The notes beneath the pieces were generated by a model that worked only from the letters and a program-made list of their open reading frames with translations, had not been told where the DNA came from and made no database searches. Below, one piece after another: positions 9,420 through 24,277 of a stretch of 64,000 bases of DNA; position 1 is the stretch's first letter, and each line of letters opens with the position of its first letter. The position numbers and the translations under genes are program-made. The stretch lies in contig NZ_FNAT01000004.1 of assembly GCF_900102015.1 (NCBI RefSeq), forward strand, positions 1 through 64,000. Reading direction: 5' to 3'. The DNA comes from Limimaricola pyoseonensis. Its GTDB lineage: Bacteria; Pseudomonadota; Alphaproteobacteria; Rhodobacterales; Rhodobacteraceae.

Positions 9420-10235
9420 TCAGTGCACGTCGCCGCTCTTCCAGCGGACAAGCTTGGATTCCGCGAAGCTGACGAGGGCGAACATCACCACGGCGAGCAG
9501 GGCGGCGGTGAAGACGGTCGCGTAGAGCAGCGGCGAGCGGAAGTTGAAGGTGGCCTCGATGATCAGCGCGCCGAGCCCGTAATTCGAGCCGATCCACTCG
9601 GCCACGATGGCGCCGATCACGCAGGTGGTGGAGGCGATCTTGAGCGCGGCGAAGAGGAAGGGCAGCGAGCTTTGCAGGCGCACCTTCCAGAAGATCTCGG
9701 ACTTCGAGGCCGAGAGCACCCGCATCAGGTCGAGCGTCGCGGGCGAGACCGCCTTGAGACCGCGCACCATGTTCACCAGCGTCGGGAAGAAGCAGATCAG
9801 GCCCGCGATGATGATCTTGGGGGCGAAGCCGTTGCCGAAGATCAGCACCAGGATCGGCGCCACGGCGATGATCGGGATGGTGTTGACGAAGACCGCGATC
9901 GGGAAGAAGGCGCGCTCGGCGGTGGAGCTGTGCACGAACCAGACCGCCAGCGCGATCGCCACGAGGTTGCCCGCGACGAAGCCGAGCGCGGCCTCGAGGA
10001 AGGTGGGCCAGAAGTTCAGCCACAGCACGCCGGCGTTGTCGCCGAAGGCGCGCAGCACGGCCAGCGGGCTCGGCGCCATGTATTCGGGCACCTCGAAGCC
10101 CCAGACCACGAGCTGCCACAGCCCCAGCAGCCCCGCCACCGCGGCCAGCGCCGGGCCGCGCGCGATCGCCATGTCGATCAGCCGGCTCATCCGCGGCGGG
10201 GCCACCGGCATCGGGATTTGCGTCGCCTCGGCCAT
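9420..10235 (-). CDS. ABC transporter permease, nitrate/sulfonate/taurine type
   Basis: A 271-residue inner-membrane permease with several hydrophobic segments and the EAA-type loop at DLMRVLSASKSEIFWKVRLQSS, which docks the ATPase. It is the family of SsuC, TauC and ThiX-like permeases. It lies one base from the ATPase gene and 36 bases before the FAD oxidoreductase. With the ATPase and the NMT1-type binding protein it forms a complete importer for a small organic substrate. Confidence 0.9.
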   Translation of the reverse strand: MAEATQIPMPVAPPRMSRLIDMAIARGPALAAVAGLLGLWQLVVWGFEVPEYMAPSPLAVLRAFGDNAGVLWLNFWPTFLEAALGFVAGNLVAIALAVWFVHSSTAERAFFPIAVFVNTIPIIAVAPILVLIFGNGFAPKIIIAGLICFFPTLVNMVRGLKAVSPATLDLMRVLSASKSEIFWKVRLQSSLPFLFAALKIASTTCVIGAIVAEWIGSNYGLGALIIEATFNFRSPLLYATVFTAALLAVVMFALVSFAESKLVRWKSGDVH

Positions 10236-10236
10236 G

Positions 10237-11058
10237 TCAGCATTCCTCCAGGAGCTTGCGCAGATGCGCGGTGATCTGGACGAACTCCAGCGTGTCGCGA
10301 TCCGCGAGCCGCCGTTCGGGCGGCAGGTCGATCTTCATGAATTCCTTCACCCGGCCCGGATGGGCGGCGAGCATGAGCACGTATTCTCCGAGGAACGCCG
10401 CCTCGGGAATCGAGTGGGTGACGAAGAGGATCGTGGTGCCGGTCTCGCGCCAGATCCGCAGCATCTCCTCGTTGAGCTTGTCGCGGGTGATCTCGTCGAG
10501 CGCGCCGAAGGGCTCGTCCATCAGCAGGATCTTCGGCTTGGTCACCAGCGCGCGGGCGATGGCGACGCGCTGGCGCATGCCGCCCGACAGCTCGCCCGGC
10601 AGCGCGTTCTCGCGGCCCTTGAGGCCCACCAGCTCCAGCAGCGCCCGCGGGTCGGCATGCACCTCGCCGCCGCCACCCACCTCGAGCGGCAGGGCGACGT
10701 TCTCGAGCGCGGTGCGCCAGGGCAGCAGCGTCGCGTCCTGGAACACGTAGGAGAAGCTGCGGTCGCGCCGCGCCTCGGCCGGCGGCTTGCCCTGCACGTC
10801 GATCGCGCCGCGCGCCGCCGGCACGAGGTCGGCGACCGCGCGCATCAGCGTGGACTTGCCGCAGCCCGAGGGGCCGAGAATGGTGACGAAGGCGCCCTGC
10901 GGGATCTCGACCGAGACGTCCTTGAGCGCGGTGACCAGCCCCGGCGCCTGGCCGAAGGTGACGTCGAGGTTCTCGACCCGGATCGCCCCGTCCTTGCCCC
11001 GTGCCGCCGCGGGCGGGACGGGGTTGCCGGTCGCGTCGTGGCGTTCGGCGAGGGCCAT
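10237..11058 (-). CDS. ABC transporter ATP-binding protein, nitrate/sulfonate/taurine type
   Basis: A 273-residue cytoplasmic ATPase. Seen: Walker A (GPSGCGKST), the Q-loop in YVFQDATLLPW, the signature LSGGMRQR, Walker B (ILLMDEPFGALD) and the switch His in FVTHSIPEA. The start at ATG 11058 shares one base with the binding-protein stop (TGATG). A longer open frame overlaps the binding-protein gene and is rejected. It energises the permease encoded next. Confidence 0.93.
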   Translation of the reverse strand: MALAERHDATGNPVPPAAARGKDGAIRVENLDVTFGQAPGLVTALKDVSVEIPQGAFVTILGPSGCGKSTLMRAVADLVPAARGAIDVQGKPPAEARRDRSFSYVFQDATLLPWRTALENVALPLEVGGGGEVHADPRALLELVGLKGRENALPGELSGGMRQRVAIARALVTKPKILLMDEPFGALDEITRDKLNEEMLRIWRETGTTILFVTHSIPEAAFLGEYVLMLAAHPGRVKEFMKIDLPPERRLADRDTLEFVQITAHLRKLLEEC

Positions 11059-12092
11059 CACGAGACCTCCCTGCGCGCGTCGGCGGTCATCTCGAGGATC
11101 TTCAGCGTCATGACGTCGTCGACCGTGGGGGTGTTGCCGTCGAACTGGCCGAGATCGGCGTAGCTGGCGATCTGCCGCTCCCACTTGGTGCGGTCCATCG
11201 TGCCCCAGCCGCTTTCGGCGGTGGCGTCGGTGAAGACGAAGTCGAGCACCTGCCGCACCGCCCGCAGCTCGGCCTCGCGGTCGAGGTTCGGATAGGCCGC
11301 GACCAGCATCTCGACCGCCGCCTCGGGGTCGGCGCGCACGTCGGCCCAGCCGCGCGCCGTGGCGCGGGTGAAGCCGGCCAGCGTCTCGGCCTCGGTCTCG
11401 ATGGTCTCGTCGGTGGCGTAGTAGACCGTGGCGTAGAGCTGGATGCCGGTGTCCCACAGCATCAGGTCGACCCGGTCCTCGCCCAGCACGTCGAGCGCGG
11501 CGGTGTTGGTCAGCCAGCCGGTGACGGCGGCGGCCTGGCCGGTCAGCAGCTGGTTCATGTCCGAGCCCATGTTGACGATCTCGACCTGGTCCTCGGGAAT
11601 GTCGTTGGCCACGAGCAACGCCTTGAGAAGGATGTGCGCGGTGGGCTGGGTGGCGATGGTCTTGCCGACCATGTCCTGCGGCGCGCGGATCGGGTCCCCG
11701 GCCAGCGAGAAGTAGGTGAAGGGATGCTTCTGGTAGCCGGCGGCGAAGGCCTTGACCGGGATGCCGGCGGAGCGGGCCAGCATGACCGAGGGGCTCGACG
11801 AGATCTGGCCCACCGCGGCGCGCCCGGCCGCGACCGAGCCCACGCCGTCGACGTTCGGGCCGCCGGGCGTGATCTTCAGCTCGACGCCCTCCGCCTCGTA
11901 ATAGCCCTTGTTCTGGGCGACCACCTCGCCCAGCAGGCCGTTCGAGGCCAGCCAGCCGAGCTGCATCTCGACCGTCTTGAGACCGCCCGCGGCGGCGGGC
12001 CCGACCCCGACGAATGCGGGCAAGCCCGCGAAGAGGGCGGCGGTGCCCGTCATCTGCAGCAGCTGGCGCCGGCCAAGATTGGTATTCGGCAT
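11058..12092 (-). CDS. ABC transporter substrate-binding protein, NMT1/THI5 family
   Basis: A 344-residue exported binding protein. The N-terminus LGRRQLLQMTG followed by a hydrophobic stretch ending in AAAG looks like a twin-arginine signal, so it may be folded before export. The mature domain carries QLGWLASNGLLGEVVAQNKGYY near its start and GPNVDGVGSVAAGRA. This type-2 fold is shared by proteins for thiamine pyrimidine precursors, sulfonates, nitrate and phthalate-like acids. It is the first gene of the eight-gene leftward operon. Unlike the other four binding-protein genes in the window, no hairpin follows it, because the ATPase start overlaps its stop. Confidence 0.88.
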   Translation of the reverse strand: MPNTNLGRRQLLQMTGTAALFAGLPAFVGVGPAAAGGLKTVEMQLGWLASNGLLGEVVAQNKGYYEAEGVELKITPGGPNVDGVGSVAAGRAAVGQISSSPSVMLARSAGIPVKAFAAGYQKHPFTYFSLAGDPIRAPQDMVGKTIATQPTAHILLKALLVANDIPEDQVEIVNMGSDMNQLLTGQAAAVTGWLTNTAALDVLGEDRVDLMLWDTGIQLYATVYYATDETIETEAETLAGFTRATARGWADVRADPEAAVEMLVAAYPNLDREAELRAVRQVLDFVFTDATAESGWGTMDRTKWERQIASYADLGQFDGNTPTVDDVMTLKILEMTADARREVS

Positions 12093-12876: not shown

Positions 12877-13533
12877 TCAGCGGCCAGGTCCGTAACCGGC
12901 AAACGCGGCGATGACCTCCTGCATCTGGGCCTCGCTCAGCAGTTTCGGCTGTCCGTCCTGCCGGCTGAGCAGGTAGATCCGGGCGATGTTCTCGAGCTCC
13001 TCCATCCGCCACAGCGCGCGTTCGATGCTTTCGCCCAGCACCGTCGCGCCATGGCTTTCCATCAGGCAGCCATGGCGGGTCTCGAGAGTGCGGCGCATGT
13101 GCTCGGCCAGCGCCTCGCTGCCGAACAGCGCATAGGGCGCGATCGGCAGGTCCGATCCGCCGAAGGCCGCGACCATGTAGTGGCAGGCGGGGATCGGCCG
13201 TCCCTGCATGGCGACGGCGGTGGCATGGGCGGGATGGGCATGGACCACCACGCGCATGTCCCGCCGCGACCGCAGCAGCGCCTGGTGGAAGCGCCACTCG
13301 CTCGAGGGCCGGACCGGGCCGCCGCTATCCGCCCCGCCGGACAGCGGCATCGTCACGAGCATCTCGGGCATCAGGGCGTCGTAGGGGATGCCCGAGGGCG
13401 TGATCAGCATCCCGTCCGTCAGGCGCACCGAGATGTTGCCGGAGGTGCCCTGGTTGATGCCGCGCGCGTTCATCCAGCGGCAGGCGTCGATGATCGACTG
13501 GCGCAGTTCCGGCCCGTCCTCGAACCCGGTCAT
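12877..13533 (-). CDS. Class II aldolase (fuculose-1-phosphate aldolase/AraD family)
   Basis: A 218-residue zinc aldolase. Seen: the phosphate-binding GTSGN (residues 29-33), catalytic Glu79 in SSEW, zinc ligands His98 and His100 in HAHP, and His161 in ESHGA. The spacing equals that of E. coli fuculose-1-phosphate aldolase (E73, H92, H94, H155) with a constant offset of six. Relatives cleave 5-methylthioribulose-1-phosphate (Ald2, DHAP-ethylene shunt) or 5-deoxyribulose-1-phosphate (DrdA) into DHAP plus a C2 aldehyde. Co-transcription with mtnK and mtnA makes one of those reactions likely. It is the last gene of its operon and overlaps the regulator stop by 4 bases. Confidence 0.88.
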   Translation of the reverse strand: MTGFEDGPELRQSIIDACRWMNARGINQGTSGNISVRLTDGMLITPSGIPYDALMPEMLVTMPLSGGADSGGPVRPSSEWRFHQALLRSRRDMRVVVHAHPAHATAVAMQGRPIPACHYMVAAFGGSDLPIAPYALFGSEALAEHMRRTLETRHGCLMESHGATVLGESIERALWRMEELENIARIYLLSRQDGQPKLLSEAQMQEVIAAFAGYGPGR

Positions 13534-14510
13534 CGGGCACCTCCAAGCAAGTGTTCTGCCATGTCCGAGCTCGTCGCCAGATGCGTGGCGTAGCCACCGA
13601 GAATGGCGGCCCGGCTCGCCTCGAGCCGGTCGGCATCGGCGGCGACCAGCAGCCGCAGCGGCTTGTCCCGCATCTGCTCGAGCGTCACGCCGATCATCCG
13701 GTCCTCGATCTCGGAGCGCATCGGCCGGCCCGCCGCGTCGATCAGCCGGCCGCAGATCACGCCGGCCGCGCCGGCGGCGCGGAACTCGGCCAGCCTGTCG
13801 CGGTCGAGCAGGCCGGTGCGCGCCATGTGGCTGTCGGGGCCGCAGGTGCCGGCCGCGAACACCACCTTGTTGCAGTCCGCCACGGCGCGCAGCTGCTCGG
13901 CCACCACCGGCTCGCGCTTGAGCCGGGTGCAGAGATCCTCGTCCGACAGAAGCAGCGGCACGTGCAGGTTGACGCAGCGCGCATCGAAGCGCGCGGCCAG
14001 CGTCGCCGAGCAGGTCTCGGCCGCGAAGCCGAGCGCCGCGGGGCGCGAGCCGAGAAGCTGCACCACCGTCAGCTCGCGGATCGGCTGGTGCGGCGCCGCC
14101 CCGGCCAGCCGGTAGATCGTCTCGCCCCAGGCCACGCCGAGCCGGTCGCCCGGCTCGAGCAGCTGCGGCAGCCAGTCCGAGGCCGCGCGGATCACCCGAT
14201 CGGAGCTGCGCGCGACCTCGGCCGCATCGGAGGGCACCACCAGCGCCCCGGCCAGGCCGAACCGCTCGCGGATCCGCTCGGCCAGCGCGCTGGCGCGGAA
14301 GATCTCGGTGTCGAGCGAGATCCGGACATAGTTGCGCCGGCGCGCCTCGGCGAGGTAGTTCACCACGCTGGCGCGGCTGACCCCCATCCGCGCGGCGATG
14401 TCGCTCTGGTTCAGCCCGTCATGGTAGTAGCACCAGGCCGCCTCGATGATCGCGTCGATCTGGCGGTCCTCGCCGTCGAGGCGGCGGCGCGGGGCCGAAG
14501 GCGTCGTCAT
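13530..14510 (-). CDS. SorC/DeoR-type sugar-binding transcriptional regulator
   Basis: A 326-residue regulator. The N-terminal helix-turn-helix is at about residues 33-60 (LNQSDIAARMGVSRASVVNYL), followed by a SorC sugar-phosphate-binding domain of isomerase-like fold (VAWGETIYRL, VFAAGTCG, GVICGRLID). SorC regulators usually respond to phosphorylated sugars, here plausibly a ribulose 1-phosphate from mtnA. It lies between mtnA and the aldolase gene. Its likely target is the palindrome at 16930-16946 between the two divergent operons. Confidence 0.9.
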   Translation of the reverse strand: MTTPSAPRRRLDGEDRQIDAIIEAAWCYYHDGLNQSDIAARMGVSRASVVNYLAEARRRNYVRISLDTEIFRASALAERIRERFGLAGALVVPSDAAEVARSSDRVIRAASDWLPQLLEPGDRLGVAWGETIYRLAGAAPHQPIRELTVVQLLGSRPAALGFAAETCSATLAARFDARCVNLHVPLLLSDEDLCTRLKREPVVAEQLRAVADCNKVVFAAGTCGPDSHMARTGLLDRDRLAEFRAAGAAGVICGRLIDAAGRPMRSEIEDRMIGVTLEQMRDKPLRLLVAADADRLEASRAAILGGYATHLATSSDMAEHLLGGAR

Positions 14511-14514
14511 CGGC

Positions 14515-15618
14515 TCACTCCGCCGCCGCGACCATGTCGGGAAACAGGCCGGCCAGCCCCTCCGGCGTGGCAGCGCAGACCCCGCGCTCGGTGATCAGGC
14601 CGGTCACCAGCCGGCTCGGCGTCACGTCGAAGGCCGGGTTGCCGACCGCGCTGCCCTCGGGCGCCACCCGCAGCGTGCCGATGCGCCCCGCCTCGTCCAC
14701 GCCCTGCACATGGCTGACCTCGAACCCGCCCCGCTCCTCGATCGGGATCTCGCTCACCCCGTCGGCCACGGTCCAGTCGATCGTCGGCGAGGGCAGCGCG
14801 ACGTAGAAGGGCACGCCGTTGTCCCGCGCCGCCAGCGCCTTGAGATAGGTGCCGATCTTGTTGCAGACATCGCCGTTGCGGGTGGTGCGGTCGGTGCCGA
14901 CGATGACGAGGTCGACCTGGCCGTGCTGCATCAGGTGGCCGCCGGCATTGTCGGTGACGTAGCTGTGCGGCACGCCGTGGCTGCCCAGCTCCCATGCGGT
15001 GAGCGCGCCCTGGTTGCGCGGCCGCGTCTCGTCGACCCAGACATGCAGCGCCAGGCCTGCGTCATGCGCCTGGTAGATCGGGCTGGTGGCGGTGCCGTAA
15101 TCGACGGTGGCGAGCCAGCCCGCGTTGCAATGCGTGAGCAGCCGCACCGGCTCGCCCTCGGGCTTGCGCGCGGCGATGTCGCGGATCAGCTGCAGCCCGT
15201 GGCGGCCGATCGCGCGGTTGATCTCGACATCCTCGTCGGCCACGGCATGCGCCAGTTCCAGCGCCGCCCCTGCCCGCGCCTCGGGCGCGAGACCGCGCAG
15301 CGCCCCGCGGCAGCGGTCGAGCGCCCAACGCAGGTTGATCGCCGTGGGCCGGGTTTCGTGCAGGTAGCTCCAGCAGCGGTCGAGGCTCGCATCCGAGGGG
15401 TCCTGCGCCATGGCCAGCGCCACGCCATAGGCGGCGGTGGCGCCGATCAGCGGCGCGCCCCTGACCCGCATCTCGACGATGGCGGTGGCGTAGTCCTCGA
15501 GGCTGTCGAGCTGCTGCACCCGGAAGTCGTGCGGCAGCCAGCGCTGGTCGATGATCTGCAGCGCCCCCTTCCCGGCATCCCACCACAGCGATCGGTAAGC
15601 TTGTCCATCGACCTTCAT
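14515..15618 (-). CDS. mtnA: S-methyl-5-thioribose-1-phosphate isomerase (MtnA) or 5-deoxyribose homologue
   Basis: A 367-residue cytoplasmic isomerase converting an aldose 1-phosphate (5-methylthioribose 1-phosphate) to the ribulose 1-phosphate. Seen: RGAPLIG (residues 53-59), the conserved Cys164 in THCNAGWLA, and Asp243 in the [17 protein letters not shown] block. Cys160 and Asp240 are the catalytic pair in the Bacillus enzyme, so the active site is intact. The start ATG overlaps the mtnK stop (ATGA). Homologues called DrdI act on 5-deoxyribose 1-phosphate, and sequence alone does not separate the two. It supplies substrate to the class II aldolase and possibly to the RuBisCO-like protein. 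Confidence 0.93.
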
Positions 15619-16874
15619 GTCACGCAGGCTCCATTGTAACGGCGCGCCATGGCGCAGAGCGCCACGGCGTCGGGAATGGTCTCGGCCCCGAGGATCAGCT
15701 CGCGCCCCATCATCAGGTTGCGCGCCTCGAGCGGCGCGCGCAACGCCGGGTCGGCGATGCTCTCGAAATCGGCGTTGTGCGCCAGCGACAGCACCCGGCG
15801 ATGCATCTCGATGCCGCAGACCGTGAGCGCGTCCTGCCAGACCTCGCGCAGCAGCGCCGCGCGGGCGGGGGCCGAGCCGTGGCCCTGCGCCTCGAACAGG
15901 CAGCGCGGGTAGAGCATGCCGGTCCGCTCGGTGTCCCACAGCCGGGCGAACTCCGTCTCGAAGGCGGCGAAGGTCCCTTCGATCACCTCCAGCAGCCACT
16001 CCTGGTAGCTGTCGAGATCGGCGCCGCGATGCCCCGGCTGGCTGAAATAGGACATCAGGTAGTTGGCGGTCAGCATGCCGATGTCGAAGCCCATCGGCCC
16101 GTATTGCGCGAATTCGGGGTCGATCACCCGCACCGCGTCGGCGGTGGCCATGATCGAGCCGGAATGCAGGTCGCCATGCAGCAGCGTCTCGGTGTTCGAG
16201 GCAAAGCGCATCAGCATCCGCTGCACGCGGGCCTTGAGCGCCACATGCTCCCGCAGCCGCGCCACCACCGCATCGAGGCCGGGCGTGTGGTGGTTCTTCT
16301 CGGCGGCGTAATAGGGGTCGGTGAAGACCAGATCCTCGGTGATCGCCGGGATCTCGACATTGCCGGCAAACAGCGCCACGTCGGCCTTCTTCTCGGCGCT
16401 GGCCATGCTCAGCTCGGAGCCGCGGAAGGCGGTGCGCGCGCAGAAGGCGCCGATCCGCGCCGCCAGCCCCTCGACCCGCTCTCCGGCGATCAGCTTGTGG
16501 CGCAGGATCCGGTGCGGCGACAGGTACTCCATCACGATCAGCGCCTGCGCCTCGTCGAAATGGAAGATCTCGGGCACCGCGCCGGGGTCGCGCCGGGCCT
16601 GCCGGTCGAGCGCGTGGAACTCGTAGAAGGCGCGGTAGAGCGGCAGCGGCCAGCTGTCGCCCACCAGCCGCACATAGGGCAGCGCCTGCTTCACCACCAC
16701 CTGCCCGGCCGGGCCCTCGATGATGAAGACGAGGTTGAGGTTGCCGTCCCCGACCTCGCGCACCTGCCACGTCTCGGGCGCGCCGCCCACCCGCTCGGCG
16801 AGCCCCGGCACGTCGCGCAGCCGCGCGCCCAGCGTCGCCGGTTCCAGCGCCTCGTAGCTGGCCTGTGATGCCAT
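15615..16874 (-). CDS. mtnK: 5-methylthioribose kinase (MtnK) or 5-deoxyribose kinase homologue
   Basis: A 419-residue kinase of the aminoglycoside-phosphotransferase/choline-kinase fold that makes the sugar 1-phosphate with ATP. Seen: [13 protein letters not shown] (residues 38-50), [13 protein letters not shown], the catalytic HGDLHSGS (233-240) and the metal-binding DPEFA (252-256). All are MtnK hallmarks. ATG 16874 is preferred over an in-frame upstream start at 16928 because a GGAGGA-like site precedes it and family similarity begins there. First gene of the leftward operon, divergent from the sugar importer across 139 bases. Using a kinase and not MTA phosphorylase means the operon handles the free sugar, which fits an importer next door. 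Confidence 0.93.
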
Positions 16875-17013: not shown

Positions 17014-18534
17014 ATGGGCGAGACTGTCTGCGAAATAAGGGACCTGCGAAAATCCTTCGGGCAGAATCACGTTCTGCTGGGGATCGATCTCGAGCTGCGC
17101 TCGGGCGAGGTCACGGTGCTGATGGGCGCCAACGGCGCCGGCAAGTCGACGCTGGTCAAGGTGCTGTGCGGCCACCACCGGATGGATGGCGGCCACATGA
17201 CGCTGGCCGGCGCGCCCTACGCGCCGCATGACGCGGCCGAGGCGATCGCGCGCGGCGTCGTGACCGTGCACCAGTCGATCGACGATGGCGTGATCCCCGA
17301 TCTCGACGTGGCCACCAACCTGATGCTCGACCGGCTGACCGAGCCCGGCGCCGGGCTGTTCGTGCGAGACGCGAAACTGCGCGCCCGCGCCGCCGAGGTC
17401 GCCCGCGGCATGGGTCTCACGGTCGACGTGCGCCGCCGCGTCGCCGATCTCGACATCGCCGACCGGCAGATGATCGCGATCGCGCGCGCCATGGCCCGCG
17501 CGCCCAAGGTGCTGGTGCTCGACGAGCCGACCTCGTCGCTCTCGGCCGCCGAGGCCGAGCGGCTGTTTTCGCTGATCGACCGGTTGCGGGCGCAGGGCGT
17601 GGCGATCCTCTACATCTCGCACCGCATGTCCGACATCCGGCGGCTGGCCGACAAGATCGTCTGCATGCGCGACGGCGCGATCTCGGGCGTCTTCGCGCAG
17701 GCGCCGCTCGACTACGAGGCGGCGGTGGCGGCGATGCTCGGCCACAAGATGACCGAGGTCGACATCACCCCGCGCCGCGGCAACGCGCCGGTGCTCGAAT
17801 GCGCGGGGCTGCAGCTGCAACCCGGCCGCCCGCCGATCGACCTGACCCTGCGCGAGTGCGAGGTCGTGGCCGTGACCGGGCTTCTGGGCAGCGGTAAGAC
17901 CCGCCTGGCCGAGATCATCTACGGGCTGCGCCGCCCCGCCGGCGGCACGATGCGGCTCGACGGCGCGCCCTACGCGCCGCGTGACGCGCGCGCCGCCGTC
18001 GCGGCGGGCGTGTTCCTGTCGCCCAAGGATCGCGGCGCCAACGCGGTGATCCCGGATTTCGACATCGCCGACAACATGACCCTGCCCTTCCTCGGCGCGT
18101 TCAGCCGGCTGTCGCTGCTCAGCCGCGCCCGGCAGCGCGACACGGTCGGCGAGATGGTCGACCGCATCGGCGTGGTCTGCCGCTCGCCGCGCGACGGCAT
18201 CCTGACGCTGTCGGGCGGCAACCAGCAGAAGGTGATGATCGGCCGCTGGCTGATCGAGCCCTGCCGGGTGCTGCTGCTCGACGAGCCGTTCCAGGGCGTC
18301 GACATCGGCGCCCGGCGCGACATCGGCCGCCACATCCGCGACACCGCCGCCGGCCGCGCCACCATCGTCCTCGTCGCCGAGATCGACGAGGCGATCGAGA
18401 TCGCCGACCGCATCATCGTGCTCAACGAGGGCGCGCTGGCCGGCGAGCATGTCAACGAGAACATCGATCTCGGCCGCCTGGTCGCCCAGGTATCCGGGCC
18501 GGCGCCGATGCTCGCGACGGAGACCACGGCATGA
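17014..18534 (+). CDS. Sugar ABC importer ATPase, RbsA/XylG type (two ABC domains)
   Basis: A 506-residue double ATPase of the ribose/xylose importer class. The first domain has Walker A (GANGAGKST), a degenerate signature (ADLDIADRQM instead of LSGGQ) and Walker B (VLVLDEPTSSLS). The second has a degenerate P-loop (GLLGSGKT), the signature LSGGNQQK and Walker B (VLLLDEPFQGVD). Such asymmetry is normal in this class. First gene of a seven-gene rightward operon; its stop overlaps the permease start (ATGA). Clustering with mtnK/mtnA points to a free pentose derivative such as 5-methylthioribose or 5-deoxyribose as cargo (inference). Confidence 0.93.
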   Translation: MGETVCEIRDLRKSFGQNHVLLGIDLELRSGEVTVLMGANGAGKSTLVKVLCGHHRMDGGHMTLAGAPYAPHDAAEAIARGVVTVHQSIDDGVIPDLDVATNLMLDRLTEPGAGLFVRDAKLRARAAEVARGMGLTVDVRRRVADLDIADRQMIAIARAMARAPKVLVLDEPTSSLSAAEAERLFSLIDRLRAQGVAILYISHRMSDIRRLADKIVCMRDGAISGVFAQAPLDYEAAVAAMLGHKMTEVDITPRRGNAPVLECAGLQLQPGRPPIDLTLRECEVVAVTGLLGSGKTRLAEIIYGLRRPAGGTMRLDGAPYAPRDARAAVAAGVFLSPKDRGANAVIPDFDIADNMTLPFLGAFSRLSLLSRARQRDTVGEMVDRIGVVCRSPRDGILTLSGGNQQKVMIGRWLIEPCRVLLLDEPFQGVDIGARRDIGRHIRDTAAGRATIVLVAEIDEAIEIADRIIVLNEGALAGEHVNENIDLGRLVAQVSGPAPMLATETTA

Positions 18535-19544
18535 GCAGCGACCGCATCCTCAACTTCGCCATCCGCTTCGGCTTCCTGATCCTGCTGGCCGGGCTGGTGC
18601 TGTATTTCAGCGTCTTCGCCAACGGCTTCGCCTCGCCGCGCTCGGCCGTCTTCATCCTGCAATCGGTGGCGATCACCGGCATCCTCGCGCTCGGCGTCAC
18701 CTGCACGCTGGTGGTGGACGGCTTCGATCTCTCGATCGGCTCGGTCGCCACCTCGGCGCTGATGCTTTCGGCCTACGCGATGGTGGTGCTGGAGCTGTCT
18801 GCCGGCATGGCGATCCTCATGTGCCTGCTGATGGGCGCCGGGGTCGGGCTGGTCAACGGGCTCCTGATAGTGAAGTTCAAGGTGCCGGACCTGCTGGCGA
18901 CGCTGGGCATGATGTTCCTGCTGATCGGCCTGCAGCGCATCCCGACCCAGGGCAACTCCATCGCCACCGGCATGGCGCTGCCCGACGGCAGCACCGCCGA
19001 AGGCAGCTTCTCGCCGGCCTTCCTGTGGTTCGGCCGCGAGCGGCTCGACCTGGTGCTCGAGAACCTGCTGCCGGTGCCGGTGGTGGTCTTCCTCGTGATC
19101 GCCGTGGCGATCTGGGTCTTCCTCGACTTCACCCGCCACGGCCGGCTGATGTACGCGATCGGCTCGAACCAGAAGGCCGCGGCCCTGGTCGGCGCGCCGG
19201 TCAGCCGCAACAAGATCGCCGCCTACATGATCTCGGGCGTGATGGCCTCGATCGGCGGCATCCTTCTGGCGGCGCGGCTCGGGCGCGGCGACATCGCATC
19301 GGGAACCAACCTGCTGCTCGACAGCGTCGCCGCGGCGCTGATCGGCTTCGCGGTGCTCGGCGCGGCGCGGCCCAACGCCTTCGGCACCGCCATCGGCGCG
19401 CTCTTCGTCGGCATCCTGCTGCAGGGCCTGACCATGATGAACGCGCCCTACTACACTCAGGATTTCGTCAAGGGCGCCGTGCTTGTGATCGCGCTCGTCT
19501 TCACCTTCTACCTGTCCTCGCGCCGCGGCGCGGGGGCGGGCTAA
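18531..19544 (+). CDS. Sugar ABC importer permease, RbsC type
   Basis: A 337-residue, mostly hydrophobic inner-membrane permease. Typical RbsC landmarks are GVTCTLVVDGFDLSIGS near residues 60-75, the KFKVPDLLATLGMM segment and a terminal YLSSRRG. The ATG overlaps the ATPase stop. It forms a homodimer in this family and works with the double ATPase and the periplasmic protein encoded next, 29 bases downstream. Confidence 0.93.
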   Translation: MSSDRILNFAIRFGFLILLAGLVLYFSVFANGFASPRSAVFILQSVAITGILALGVTCTLVVDGFDLSIGSVATSALMLSAYAMVVLELSAGMAILMCLLMGAGVGLVNGLLIVKFKVPDLLATLGMMFLLIGLQRIPTQGNSIATGMALPDGSTAEGSFSPAFLWFGRERLDLVLENLLPVPVVVFLVIAVAIWVFLDFTRHGRLMYAIGSNQKAAALVGAPVSRNKIAAYMISGVMASIGGILLAARLGRGDIASGTNLLLDSVAAALIGFAVLGAARPNAFGTAIGALFVGILLQGLTMMNAPYYTQDFVKGAVLVIALVFTFYLSSRRGAGAG

Positions 19545-19573
19545 CCGTTTCGCGTGAAAGGGAGGAACCACGC

Positions 19574-20611
19574 ATGATGAGACGAACCCTGTTGCGGTTG
19601 AGCGGCGCCGCGCTGGCGGTGCTGCCGGCGCTGCCCGCCGCCGCCGAGATGCCCGCGCCCTTCGACGCGCCGGGCGAGGTGAAGATCGCCCTGGTGCGCT
19701 ACCTGTCCACCGGCGACTTCTTCCAGTCCTACCTCGCCGGCGTCGAGGCGCAGTCCGAGGCGCTCGGCCTCGACCTGCGGGTGCTCGACAGCCGCCAGGA
19801 CGCGGCGCTGCAGGCCGACATGGTCGACCAGGCCATCGCGCTCGGCGTCGACGGCATCATCATCCAGCACGGCCTGACCGAGTCGATGAAGGAGGCCGCG
19901 CAGCGCGCGGTCGAGGCCGGCATCGAGGTCGTGGCCTTCGACGTCGATGTCGAGAACGACGCGATCCCGCAGATCGAGCAGTCGGACTACCTGCTGGGCA
20001 AGCTGGCGCTCGACCAGGCGATGGCCGATCACGGCGACGCCTTCACCGCCGGCTACGTCTACGTCCCCGGCATCGCGCCGCTCGACCGCCGCGACGTCGC
20101 CTGGAAGGAGGTGAAGGAGGCCAATCCCGGCATCACCGAGGCCGCGCAGTTCGGCACGCTCGACAACCCGATCGCCAACTCGGTCGCCAACCAGGCGCGC
20201 TCGGTGCTGCAGGCCAACCCGACCATCGAGGTGATGTTCGCCCCCTATGACGAGTTTGCCAAGGGCGTGAAGATCGCCGTGGACGAGGCCGGGCTGTCGC
20301 AGGACATCGACATCTACTCGGCCGACATCTCCACCGCCGACATCGCCGCGATGCGCGAGCCCGACAGCGCCTGGGTCGCCACCGTCGCCACCAACCCCGC
20401 CGTGGTCGGCGAGGTCTCGGTGCGAACGCTGGCGATGATGCTGGCCGGCGAGGAGGTCGAGGCTTCGGTGGTGGTGCCGCCGACGCTGATCACCCAGAGC
20501 CTGCTCAACGAGGAGGACATCAAGAACATCGAGGAGCTGGGCGCCAAGATGCCGCAGTTCCGGCATGCCGATGTCTCGATGACCGACTGGATGCCGCTGC
20601 CGCCGCGCTGA
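19574..20611 (+). CDS. Sugar-binding periplasmic protein, ribose-type (Peripla_BP_4)
   Basis: A 345-residue exported protein with a signal peptide (RR..., then a hydrophobic stretch to ALPAAAEM, cleavage near residue 24). The type-1 periplasmic fold is shown by KIALVRYLSTGDFFQSYLAG, LDSRQDAALQADMVDQAI and GVDGIIIQHG. Two methionine codons open the frame; ATG 19574 is taken, 19577 is equally possible. A strong hairpin lies directly after its stop, probably raising the level of this transcript relative to later genes. Its ligand would define the whole locus. Confidence 0.92.
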   Translation: MMRRTLLRLSGAALAVLPALPAAAEMPAPFDAPGEVKIALVRYLSTGDFFQSYLAGVEAQSEALGLDLRVLDSRQDAALQADMVDQAIALGVDGIIIQHGLTESMKEAAQRAVEAGIEVVAFDVDVENDAIPQIEQSDYLLGKLALDQAMADHGDAFTAGYVYVPGIAPLDRRDVAWKEVKEANPGITEAAQFGTLDNPIANSVANQARSVLQANPTIEVMFAPYDEFAKGVKIAVDEAGLSQDIDIYSADISTADIAAMREPDSAWVATVATNPAVVGEVSVRTLAMMLAGEEVEASVVVPPTLITQSLLNEEDIKNIEELGAKMPQFRHADVSMTDWMPLPPR

Positions 20612-20662: not shown

Positions 20663-21112
20663 ATGCTGACCGGCATCGACCCGCGCATGACGCCCGAGCT
20701 GCTGCACTGCCTCGCCCGGATGGGCCATGGCGACGAGATCGCGGTGGTCGACGCGAACTACCCGGCCGCGCGCAGCGCCGCGGGCTGCGTGCTCGACACG
20801 CCGCTACCGCTCGCGGGGCTCGACGCCGCCGCCGCGGTCGCGATGATCTGTGCGCTGATGCCGCTCGACGCTTATTTCGACCACGCCGCGCTGCGCATGC
20901 AGGTCGACGGCGCGCCCGACGACCTGCCACCGGTGCATCTGGACGCGGCCCGCGCGCTGGCGCCGCACCTGCCCGGCGGCCGCCCGATGGGAAGCATCGA
21001 GCGCCAGGCCTACTACGCCCGGGCCGAGCGCGGCTTCGCCGTGGTCACGACATCCGAGACCCGCCCCTTCGGCTGTTTCATCCTGAGAAAGGGCGTGGTC
21101 GCCGGCCCCTGA
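20663..21112 (+). CDS. RbsD/FucU family sugar mutarotase
   Basis: A 149-residue protein of the RbsD/FucU fold, close to the FucU subgroup: MLTGIDPRMTPELLHCLARMGHGDEI at the start, VVDANYPA, and the C-terminal SIERQAYYARAERGFAVVTTSE. These enzymes interconvert anomers or ring forms of free sugars after uptake. A 5-methylthio- or 5-deoxyribose cannot form a pyranose, so anomer exchange before 1-phosphorylation by MtnK is a sensible role here (inference). It lies after the binding-protein hairpin and 67 bases before the transketolase subunit. Confidence 0.9.
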   Translation: MLTGIDPRMTPELLHCLARMGHGDEIAVVDANYPAARSAAGCVLDTPLPLAGLDAAAAVAMICALMPLDAYFDHAALRMQVDGAPDDLPPVHLDAARALAPHLPGGRPMGSIERQAYYARAERGFAVVTTSETRPFGCFILRKGVVAGP

Positions 21113-21179: not shown

Positions 21180-22106
21180 ATGCGCAACGAAAAGACGACC
21201 GAGCAGGTGGCTCTCGGCATCCGCCGCCGGGTGTTCGAACACGCGATCCGCAACAATGGCGGCTATCTCAGCCAGGCCTGCTCGGCCGCCGAGCAGCTGG
21301 CCTGGCTCTACAACGAGGAGCTGCGCCTCGGCGCGCCGACCCTGCCGCGCGTGCCCAAGCCCTTCGGCGGCGTGCCCTCCGCCGCCAATCCCGGCTACCA
21401 CACCGGCGCCGGCTACAACGGCCCGGCGGCGCCCGATCTCGACCGGCTGTTCATCGCCCCTGCCCATTACGCGCTGGTGGCCTATGCCACGCTGATCGAG
21501 GTCGACCGCATGGCGCCCGAGGGGCTCGAGATGTTCAACCAGGACGGCTCCTCGGTCGAGATGATCGGCGCCGAGCATTCGCCGGGCATGGAGGTGCACA
21601 ACGGCACGCTCGGCATCGGCCTGTCGACCGGTGCCGGCCTCGCCTGGGGGCGGCAGAGGCGCGGCGAGACCGGCCGCACCTGGGTCTTCATGTCCGACGG
21701 CGAGGTGCAGGAGGGCCAGACCTGGGAAGCGGTGCAGGCCGCCGCGCATCACGGCATCGACAGCCTGCACGCGATCATGGACGTCAACGACCAGCAATGC
21801 GACGGCGCGATGGACAGCGTGATGACCGTGGGCGACATCCGCGCCAAGTTCGAGACCTTCGGCGCGGCCTGCGTCGAGGTCGACGGCCACGACCTCGGGG
21901 CGATCCGGCAAGCCGCGCGCGAGCCGCATGAGGGCCGGCCGCTGATCATCCTCGCCCGGACCTCGCCCTTCAGGACGATGCCGATCCTCGAGGAGCGCTT
22001 CCCGCGGCTGCATTACGTGCGCTTCAAGTCCGAGGCCGAGCGCGCCCGCTTCAATACCTCCATCGCCGCCGATCTCGGCGTCGATCCCATCGATTACGCG
22101 CACTGA
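21180..22106 (+). CDS. Transketolase-type enzyme, N-terminal (TPP-binding) subunit
   Basis: A 308-residue protein equal to the first domain of transketolase. AEHSPGMEVHNGTLGIGLSTGAGLA (residues 131-155) matches the HxPE..TGPLGQG block, and SDGEVQEGQTWEA (172-184) with N203 in DVNDQQCDG is the diphosphate/Mg motif (GDG to SDG). The pyrimidine-binding half is encoded by the next gene, 12 bases on, so the active site forms at a heteromeric interface. Split transketolases are known among catabolic enzymes, for example AptAB acting on apulose 4-phosphate. Which ketose phosphate this pair cleaves is unknown. Confidence 0.9.
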   Translation: MRNEKTTEQVALGIRRRVFEHAIRNNGGYLSQACSAAEQLAWLYNEELRLGAPTLPRVPKPFGGVPSAANPGYHTGAGYNGPAAPDLDRLFIAPAHYALVAYATLIEVDRMAPEGLEMFNQDGSSVEMIGAEHSPGMEVHNGTLGIGLSTGAGLAWGRQRRGETGRTWVFMSDGEVQEGQTWEAVQAAAHHGIDSLHAIMDVNDQQCDGAMDSVMTVGDIRAKFETFGAACVEVDGHDLGAIRQAAREPHEGRPLIILARTSPFRTMPILEERFPRLHYVRFKSEAERARFNTSIAADLGVDPIDYAH

Positions 22107-22118
22107 GGAGCCCGCGAC

Positions 22119-23123
22119 ATGGTCGAAATGGTGTCCCGCCCCTACGCCACGGCGTTCGAGAACTTCGCCGCCGGCAACCCCGATATCCTGTGCCTCTCGG
22201 CCGACCTGACCTCGTCCTGCGAGATCGACGGCTTCCGCGACCGCCACCCGGACCAGTTCCTGTCGCTGGGCATGGCCGAGCAGAACATGATGAGCTTCGC
22301 CGGCGGCCTCGGCCTCGCGGGGTTCCGCCCGTTCATCCACACCTTCGGCGTCTTCATGTATCGCCGCCCCTACGACCAGCTGATGGCCTCGATCGCCTAT
22401 CCGCGCCGCAAGGTGCGGCTGATGGGCTTCCTGCCCGGCGTCACCACCCCGGGCGGCATGACCCACCAGTCGATCGAAGACATCTCGGTGATGCGCTCGA
22501 TCCCCAACATGTCGATCCTCGAGACCGGCGACGCCACCGAGGTGGAAAGCATCTGCGAGGCCGCCGACAGCATCGACGGCCCTGTCTGGTGCCGCGTGCT
22601 GCGCGGCTCGGTGCCGCGGCTGTTCGACACGCCGATCAAGGTGGGCGAGATGCGGGTCCTGTCGGAAGGCTCGGACGTGCTCGTCGTCACCTCAGGCATC
22701 ACCACCGAGGAGGCGATGCGCGCCCGCTCGGCGCTGCAGGGCGCGGGCCTGTCGATCCGCCACCTGCATCTGCACACCATCAAGCCCTTCGACCACAAGG
22801 CGCTGCTCGACCACATCGGCTCGGTGCGCCACGGCGTGGTGACGCTCGAGAACCACGTGACCGAGGGCGGCATCGGCTCGCTCGTGGCCGAGACCATGGC
22901 CGATGCCGGCGTCGGCAAGCGGCTGGTTCGGCTGGGGCTCAGGGACACCTACGCCCATGGCGGCTCGCGCGCCTATCTCATGCGCTATTACGGGCTCGAC
23001 GCGCTGGCGCTGGTGCGCGGCATCGAGGACCTGACCGGCGAGAGCTACGGCCTGACCGAGGACGATCTCGACGCCGCTCGGGTCGACGAGGTGCACTCGC
23101 TGGTCAAGGCCGAGGCGCTGTGA
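22119..23123 (+). CDS. Transketolase-type enzyme, C-terminal (pyrimidine-binding) subunit
   Basis: A 334-residue protein with the transketolase pyrimidine-binding and C-terminal domains. The catalytic Glu54 lies in GMAEQNM, GMTHQSIEDISVMRSIPNM follows in the second domain, and the C-terminal part contains VVTSGITTEEAM and ENHVTEGGIGSLVAE. It needs the partner subunit encoded upstream. Its stop shares one base with the start of the RuBisCO-like gene (TGATG), implying coupled synthesis of transketolase and RLP and hence a shared pathway. Confidence 0.9.
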   Translation: MVEMVSRPYATAFENFAAGNPDILCLSADLTSSCEIDGFRDRHPDQFLSLGMAEQNMMSFAGGLGLAGFRPFIHTFGVFMYRRPYDQLMASIAYPRRKVRLMGFLPGVTTPGGMTHQSIEDISVMRSIPNMSILETGDATEVESICEAADSIDGPVWCRVLRGSVPRLFDTPIKVGEMRVLSEGSDVLVVTSGITTEEAMRARSALQGAGLSIRHLHLHTIKPFDHKALLDHIGSVRHGVVTLENHVTEGGIGSLVAETMADAGVGKRLVRLGLRDTYAHGGSRAYLMRYYGLDALALVRGIEDLTGESYGLTEDDLDAARVDEVHSLVKAEAL

Positions 23124-24277
23124 TGGAGCGCTTCACGGTCGACTACCGCATCATCGCCCCGAGCGCCGACGAGGCCGGCGCCCGCGCCGCCGCGATCGCG
23201 CTCGAGGACACGGTCGAGATCCCGCGCGACGTCGTGCCGGCGGGCTATGTCGAGGATGTCATCCTCGGCCGGGTCGAGACGGTCGCGCCGGAGGCCGAGA
23301 CCGCAGGCTGCTGGCGGGCGCGGATCAGCTACCATGTCGACGCGGTCGGGCGCGAATTCGCGCAGCTCCTGAACGTCGTGCTCGGCAACGCCTCGATCCT
23401 CAGGGGCGTCCGGGCGATGGCGATCACCCCCGACCCGGCGCTGCGCGAGCGGTTCCCCGGCGCGGGCTTCGGCGCCGAAGGCCTGCGCCGCCTGACCGGC
23501 CGGGCGCAGGGCGGCCATGTCTGCCCGGTGATCAAGCCGCAGGGCTCGTCGGTCGAGACGCTGGCGCGGCTGTGCTACCTGACCGCGCGCGCCGGCGCCG
23601 ACATCGTCAAGGAGGATCACGGCCTCGCCAACCAGGACGCGGCCCCCTTCCGCGAGCGGGTCAGCCGCTGCGCCGAGGCGGTCGCCCGCGCCAATGCCGA
23701 GCGCGCCGCGGCGGGCGAGACCGGGCGGGCGCTCTACTTCGCCAACATCGCAGGTCACGGCGACCAGCTGCGGGATCTGGCGCTGCACGCCAAGGCCGCC
23801 GGCGCGCACGGGCTTCTGCTGATCCCCGGCCTCTACGGCTTCTCGGCGCTGCACGCGCTGTCGCGCGATCCCGAGATCGGCCTGCCGATCATGGCCCATC
23901 CGAGCCATCTGGGGCCCTATGTGCTCTCGCCCGACACCGGCTATGCCCACGGGCTGCTCTTCGGTACGCTGATGCGGCTGGCCGGGGCCGACATCACGGT
24001 CTTTCCCAACCATGGCGGGCGGTTCGGCTTCTCGGTGGCCGAATGCGAGGAGATCGTCGCCGCCTGCCGTGCTGCGGACGGCCCCGGCCGCGCGATCCTG
24101 CCCAGCCCCGGCGGCGGCATGAGCCTCGATCGGCTGGGCGAGATGCGCCGGCATTACGGCGACGACTGCGTCTACCTGCTCGGCGGCAGTCTGCTGCGCT
24201 ATGGCGAGCGGATCGGCGAGGCGATCCGCGAGATGCGCGACGCGCTCGATGCCCGGCCGGAGACGGTGTCGGGCTGA
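23123..24277 (+). CDS. RuBisCO-like protein (type IV large-chain homologue)
   Basis: A 384-residue RuBisCO large-chain homologue; true RuBisCO large chains are about 470. Seen: PVIKPQGSS with Lys138 (equivalent to spinach K175), DIVKEDHGLANQ with Lys163 (K201, the carbamylated Lys) and Asp165 (D203), then AHPSHLG, FPNHGGRFG, SPGGGM (329-332) and LLGGS. The position equivalent to metal-ligand Glu204 is His166. Canonical loop-6 lysine sequence is not apparent, and no small subunit or phosphoribulokinase is near, so CO2 fixation is unlikely. RLPs are known as 2,3-diketo-5-methylthiopentyl-1-phosphate enolase, 5-methylthioribulose-1-phosphate isomerase, or 3-oxo-isoapionate-4-phosphate hydrolase (OiaX). 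Context with mtnK and mtnA favours a methylthio- or deoxyribulose 1-phosphate substrate. Confidence 0.92.
   Translation: MERFTVDYRIIAPSADEAGARAAAIALEDTVEIPRDVVPAGYVEDVILGRVETVAPEAETAGCWRARISYHVDAVGREFAQLLNVVLGNASILRGVRAMAITPDPALRERFPGAGFGAEGLRRLTGRAQGGHVCPVIKPQGSSVETLARLCYLTARAGADIVKEDHGLANQDAAPFRERVSRCAEAVARANAERAAAGETGRALYFANIAGHGDQLRDLALHAKAAGAHGLLLIPGLYGFSALHALSRDPEIGLPIMAHPSHLGPYVLSPDTGYAHGLLFGTLMRLAGADITVFPNHGGRFGFSVAECEEIVAACRAADGPGRAILPSPGGGMSLDRLGEMRRHYGDDCVYLLGGSLLRYGERIGEAIREMRDALDARPETVSG

Follow-up and report, generated by a model that had tools for sequence, protein, structure and literature searches.

The window, that is, the whole stretch of 64,000 nucleotides that was analysed, contains a pair of divergent operons. 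The plus-strand operon begins with a sugar ABC transporter, composed of an ATPase (17014-18534; best match among the NCBIfam sugar ABC ATPase families AraG with 388 bits, below the cut-off), a permease (18531-19544; PF02653) and a substrate-binding protein (19574-20611; PF13407, 114 bits), followed by a sugar mutarotase of the RbsD/FucU family (20663-21112; Pfam PF05025, 105 bits). The last three genes encode the N-terminal, diphosphate-binding subunit of a non-canonical split transketolase (TKN, 21180-22106, 308 aa; Pfam PF00456 Transketolase_N, 63 bits), its pyrimidine-binding and C-terminal subunit (TKC, 22119-23123, 334 aa; Pfam PF02779/PF02780, Transket_pyr and Transketolase_C), and an RLP (23123-24277, 384 aa; RuBisCO_large). 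RLPs are relatives of RubisCO that do not fix CO2, and a pathway has been assigned for few of them. The gaps leading from the ABC transporter (17014-20611) and mutarotase to TKN are small, so that a single operon is likely.

On the minus strand, four genes that overlap or nearly touch (16874 down to 12877) encode MtnK, a putative 5-methylthioribose (or 5-deoxyribose) kinase (15615-16874; TIGR01767, 461 bits, cut-off 275), MtnA, the putative 5-methylthioribose-1-phosphate isomerase (14515-15618; TIGR00512, 426 bits, cut-off 279), a sugar-phosphate-sensing regulator of the SorC/DeoR type (13530-14510; PF04198, 186 bits), and a class II aldolase resembling FucA, DrdA and Ald2 (12877-13533; PF00596, 184 bits; FucA model 194 bits, below the equivalog cut-off), which probably forms a DHAP-shunt branch. 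Kinase, isomerase and aldolase thus make up a cluster of the DHAP shunt/drd type (12877-16874, minus strand), and a profile search with a single match identified this mtnA as the only one in the genome. An SsuABC-like ABC transporter (nitrate/sulfonate/taurine class; 9420-12092, minus strand) directly adjoins the aldolase; it was rejected as a part of the module, given that the same search found no homolog of its binding protein in the clusters of the closest relatives. The SorC-type regulator and the type of ABC transporter also led us to consider an AI-2 (Lsr) system, and this was likewise discarded: the cluster has no LsrK-, LsrF- or LsrG-like genes, and the LsrA and LsrR models scored below their cut-offs and below other models.

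The original prediction had delimited the feature at 21180-23123, a span that correctly covers TKN and TKC and omits the RLP, which is part of the same feature. Its description of the two transketolase halves as separate genes was borne out here and in all 15 of the 15 aligned sets, hence there is no frameshift, and it was also right that the C-half stop shares a base with the RLP start: the TKC stop codon (TGA, 23121-23123) and the RLP start codon (ATG, 23123-23125) have exactly one base in common, forming a TGATG overlap (23121-23125, plus strand) that would couple the two genes. This junction is conserved well beyond the present genome. Scanning a single genome per species gave 55 RLP loci, and 80 were compared in total after plasmid records and sampled genomes had been added. 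Among 60 distinct TKC-RLP pairs, the overlap was 1 nt in 43 and 4 nt in 14, leaving only three of the 60 (L007, L036 and L068 in our locus numbering) with neither arrangement.

Across the 80 RLP loci, TKC lay beside the RLP on the same strand in 66, a cupin gene was the neighbour in 10, and no locus had both. The four loci with neither partner comprise a short contig (L076), two distant RLPs (L010 and L114), and L027, where a TKC remnant of only 55 residues persists at the usual TKC place. The transporter ATPase is conserved beside the TK-RLP pair, and within the 47 TK-RLP loci with full flanks, mtnA was present in 45, the mutarotase in 8, and the entry enzyme was mtnK in 38 and a nucleoside phosphorylase in 7. 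In these seven, the phosphorylase is of the purine-nucleoside type and is accompanied by an enzyme resembling 5'-deoxyadenosine/MTA deaminases. In one locus (L106, 7152-9119, minus strand), MtnA and TKN form a single chain of 656 aa, the TKC and RLP genes come next, and a nucleoside phosphorylase lies nearby; this fusion strengthens the link of the transketolase to the pathway. A natural single-chain TKN-TKC of 669 aa also occurs upstream of an RLP (L067, 5771-7777, plus strand), and this gene set adjoins nusA/infB and has no sugar cluster. A metagenome assembly contains TKC and RLP as one frame of 706 aa (L061, 8993-11110, plus strand), either a true fusion or possibly the product of a single indel. 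A record titled Enemella evansiae, an actinobacterium (L028), holds a 95-99% copy of a Ponticoccus plasmid cluster, the result of contamination or very recent transfer. The association of the transketolase and RLP genes is thus well shown, and the module is real, conserved and mechanistically suggestive; within the family, the RLP was found in 25 of 396 sampled genomes (about 6%).

Our profile searches extended the exclusion of the cupin to whole genomes: the cupin methylsulfurylase was absent from 29 of 29 genomes of the transketolase type, including the genome studied here, and the same profile found it in five of five cupin-type control genomes. Transketolase and cupin would most simply be read as alternatives acting after the RLP. 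The adjacency of TKC and RLP in 66 of the 80 loci, never together with the cupin that elsewhere uses the RLP product, makes it likely that the transketolase acts on a ketose phosphate which the RLP produces; from the coupling of the genes, the original prediction had proposed one that the RLP makes or uses.

Among solved structures, the RLP matches 3qfw best (E 9e-57), presumably the RLP1 of R. palustris. Residues K138, K163, D165, H166, H259 and R300 are common, at 90% or more, to the RLPs linked to transketolase and those linked to the cupin, and the present RLP shares only 33-42% identity with the cupin-linked group. In a quick, unrooted tree the two groups were split by one branch (support 100), compared with a mean of 9.6 changes after shuffling. 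The protein groups with the DeepYkr 5-methylthioribulose-1-phosphate 1,3-isomerases, and 1,3-isomerase activity on 5-methylthioribulose 1-phosphate (or 5-deoxyribulose 1-phosphate) is its probable function. Other assignments were rejected: MtnW, the DK-MTP-1-P enolase (TIGR03332, 115 bits, cut-off 513.6), OiaX, the 3-oxo-isoapionate-4-phosphate RLP (NF042437, 53 bits, cut-off 700), and RubisCO itself, for which the score fell below the curated cut-off. RLP1 of R. palustris is a 5-methylthioribulose-1-phosphate 1,3-isomerase whose product is consumed by the cupin, and the RLPs of both this species and R. rubrum yield 1-methylthioxylulose 5-phosphate, from which the cupin frees methanethiol (PMC5893883).

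The split transketolase itself has an altered active site. The solved structures closest to TKN and TKC are 6yak (the N chain of a split transketolase) and 6yaj, respectively. Four substrate contacts differ from the canonical enzyme, with His26 replaced by Tyr29 and His100 by Ile129 in TKN, and His461 by Leu105 and Asp469 by Gly112 in TKC, as mapped by sequence alignment to the human and C. hydrogenoformans transketolases only; the canonical residues are numbered as in the E. coli enzyme. The GED loop is one residue shorter, and two of the four phosphate contacts are altered, His461 by the change to Leu and the N-terminal Arg by a shift of one alignment position. The catalytic Glu54 (in AEQN), His66 (His96), His473 (His116) and Arg520 (Arg162) are kept, as probably is His261 (His278), and the SDGE...N ThDP-binding motif is invariant. 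An identical residue set was found in 67 N halves and 68 C halves, the remaining rows being distant kin or fragments. An AlphaFold model of the natural TKN-TKC fusion had a pLDDT of 54, too low to support the mapping. The pair was also considered as a DXP synthase and rejected, with TKC reaching 156 bits against a cut-off of 465.95 (TIGR00204) and TKN giving no match.

The two subunits are clearly homologous to transketolases and have retained the catalytic Glu as well as the ThDP motif, which would be consistent with a second, ordinary transketolase for pentose-phosphate interconversion during growth on sugars, the RLP being linked by co-regulation only. However, this genome has a separate full-length transketolase elsewhere, and together with the four changed contacts, which are fixed in the clade, this makes an ordinary pentose-phosphate role improbable; in addition, the two halves score 132 and 187 bits against the 488-bit cut-off of the NCBIfam transketolase model, far below it, and neither the MtnA-TKN fusion nor the exclusion of the cupin would be explained.

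The changes at His100 and Asp469 can be compared with those introduced by enzyme engineers. Wild-type transketolase typically needs a C1 hydroxyl on its donor, and the E. coli variant H100L/D469T accepts pyruvate, which lacks this group (PMC10787763). The natural enzyme is changed in an equivalent manner at both engineered sites, as would be expected for a donor bearing SCH3 or H at C1. Other features of the site appear to count against such a donor, in that the changes at the phosphate contacts and at Asp469, the reader of the ketose hydroxyl, would not be required by a plain 1-substituted xylulose 5-phosphate. Related split transketolases with other gene neighbours are also without the first His and the Asp, so that Ile129 alone comes close to being clade-specific. 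Exchange of Asp469 also lets E. coli transketolase use non-polar aldehydes as acceptors (PMC5073344 for D469T; PMC10787763), and this would be consistent with an enzyme that takes an ordinary ketol unit off a ketose of the pentose-phosphate pathway and passes it to 5-deoxyribose, methylthioribose or (methylthio)acetaldehyde, generating a longer deoxy sugar independently of the RLP. The aldolase of the locus would produce such an aldehyde, and the promiscuous transketolase of Synechococcus elongatus forms 7-deoxysedoheptulose from 5-deoxyribose (PMC8102628). However, a hydrophobic residue in place of His100 disfavours ordinary donors with a C1 hydroxyl (PMC10787763), seven loci have transketolase and RLP without any aldolase, and the exclusion between transketolase and cupin beside the RLP would be left unexplained; we consider this use of salvage sugars as acceptors unlikely.

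Our preferred reading, which we consider reasonably probable, is that the locus is a catabolic module for methylthioribose or 5-deoxyribose in which the transketolase acts on the RLP product. The sugar would be taken up via the ABC transporter and mutarotase, phosphorylated at C1 by MtnK, and converted by MtnA to the 5-substituted ribulose 1-phosphate. By 1,3-isomerisation, the RLP would then move the carbonyl group and so form a D-xylulose 5-phosphate modified at C1, namely the 1-methylthio or, from 5-deoxyribose, the 1-deoxy compound, and at this point the split transketolase would take over the role played by the cupin in R. rubrum and R. palustris. The cleavage would yield glyceraldehyde 3-phosphate and a two-carbon unit from either compound: ThDP would attack C2, the C2-C3 bond would be broken, D-glyceraldehyde 3-phosphate would leave, and the two-carbon unit, with SCH3 or H rather than OH at C1, would stay on ThDP. 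What the analysis itself shows is the set of genes, their coupling, the exclusivity of the partners, the fusions and the changed residues; each reaction, the substrate used and what becomes of the two-carbon unit are inferred.

For this unit, our first preference is elimination of methanethiol, which would leave acetyl-ThDP as the precursor of acetate or acetyl phosphate, the second is transfer to an aldehyde, and the third is release as an aldehyde. In phosphoketolase and sulfoacetaldehyde acetyltransferase (Xsc), a leaving group (OH and sulfite, respectively) is lost from the ThDP enamine to yield acetyl-ThDP. In the methylthio enamine, a thiolate could depart from the position beta to the carbanion, and loss of methanethiol would therefore be chemically natural. 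The split transketolase may then tentatively be seen as a thiol-releasing, phosphoketolase-like enzyme that converts 1-methylthio-D-xylulose 5-phosphate to glyceraldehyde 3-phosphate, methanethiol and acetate or acetyl phosphate, so that RLP and transketolase would turn all of methylthioribose into central metabolites and free methanethiol without cupin or aldolase; this is a possibility to which we give limited credence. A methanethiol oxidase (SBP56) was looked for and none was found in the genome. The aldolase of the divergent operon could process 5-methylthioribulose 1-phosphate directly, so that in this genome the RLP-transketolase branch seems superfluous; the aldolase is absent from all seven TK-RLP loci of the nucleoside phosphorylase type, where this branch is the only visible route.

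The same transketolase is also present, unaccompanied by an RLP, in Marinovum, P. seriniphilus and two further genomes (G317 and G397), and these RLP-less enzymes nest within the RLP-linked clade. In G317 (L127) and G397 (L124 and L128) the genes are close relatives of the present pair, and in G317 mtnA is absent from the whole genome, implying that the transketolase substrate can arise in another way. A bisC-family molybdenum S/N-oxide reductase is the neighbour of the transketolase on three plasmids, from Ponticoccus, Marinovum and P. seriniphilus (together L002, L003 and L004), which hints at sulfur-bearing substrates. Two of these loci (L002 and L003) have no RLP and instead include genes for a XylB-like kinase, a Zn dehydrogenase and an AraD-like class II protein; the kinase and the AraD-like protein could give a xylulose 5-phosphate derivative directly, and the gene set suggests another sulfur-sugar route. 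Such relatives, together with Vibrio nigripulchritudo, where TK-RLP is accompanied by an FGGY kinase and no mtnA adjoins, would be consistent with a different 5-modified pentose as the substrate, for instance from a sulfur-containing or deoxy polyol, the mtnK, mtnA and RLP paralogs having shifted their specificity along with the transketolase. However, the mtnK and mtnA models score well above their curated cut-offs at the present locus, and its mtnA has no second copy in the genome, making such a shift rather unlikely here. A wider group of split transketolases (L011-L013, L016 and L117-L119), also without the first active-site His and the Asp, has as neighbours an amidase/penicillin acylase, an SDR with TRAP transporters, or a sulfatase with a Tct transporter.

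If the cleavage of the RLP product by the split transketolase is correct, it would represent a second natural continuation after a 1,3-isomerase RLP, found in some 6% of the genomes sampled from the family, and would explain how MTA and 5-deoxyadenosine are recycled in bacteria without the cupin or the aldolase. The enzyme would also be a natural transketolase with the donor-site change made by engineers (loss of His100), potentially useful for 1-deoxy and 1-thio ketoses. More broadly, the locus points to an undescribed cleavage of SAM-derived, sulfur-containing sugars into ordinary metabolites, and the clear exclusivity of the genes makes the hypothesis directly testable with few purified proteins.

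The module appears to be a variant of known RLP-based MTA salvage in which a dedicated, non-canonical split transketolase replaces the cupin; no earlier description of an RLP with a transketolase in MTA salvage was found in the open-licence literature. The MTA-isoprenoid shunt of R. rubrum and R. palustris (MtnP, MtnA, DeepYkr RLP and the cupin MTXu-5P methylsulfurylase) likewise has MtnA and an RLP of the same group at the level of 5-methylthioribulose 1-phosphate, but it has the cupin where the split transketolase is found here, and its entry enzyme is MtnP rather than a kinase with a transporter. The DHAP shunt and 5-deoxyribose salvage clusters (drdK-drdI-drdA, mtnK-mtnA-ald2) share with this locus a kinase, an isomerase, a class II aldolase and a sugar transporter, and a fucose mutarotase homolog is known from a cluster of the DHAP-shunt type (PMC6079011). 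The present locus differs in its additional divergent operon with RLP and split transketolase, and some clusters of its relatives are without the aldolase.

The original prediction had also pointed to AptAB, the D-apulose-4-phosphate transketolase. Like the present pair, AptAB is encoded by two genes in an operon for sugar catabolism, together with a regulator of the SorC type and an ABC transporter of the ribose type, which would be consistent with an apulose 4-phosphate or other branched, apiose-type route and an OiaC/OiaX-type RLP. However, identity to E. coli SE15 AptA and AptB (locus tags from PMC13001218) was only 29% over 206 aa and 33% over 278 aa, AptAB keeps the two active-site histidines (in GGH and GHP) that are Tyr and Ile here, and it has no adjoining RLP or mtn genes. 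The OiaX model, as given above, scored far below its cut-off, the cluster has no apiose genes, and the mtnK and mtnA neighbours, the latter in nearly all full-flank loci, point to methylthioribose or 5-deoxyribose rather than apiose; the kinship was thus not upheld and an apulose route is highly improbable. The split transketolase of Carboxydothermus hydrogenoformans (6yaj/6yak), which provides the closest solved structures to both subunits, retains the usual His and Asp contacts to the substrate that are changed here. Phosphoketolase and Xsc would be analogous in chemistry if the two-carbon unit loses methanethiol, although their kinship to the split transketolase is not close. The promiscuous transketolase of S. 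elongatus (PMC8102628) ties this enzyme class to 5-deoxyadenosine salvage, as proposed here, but it is an ordinary transketolase that uses 5-deoxyribose as acceptor and involves no RLP.
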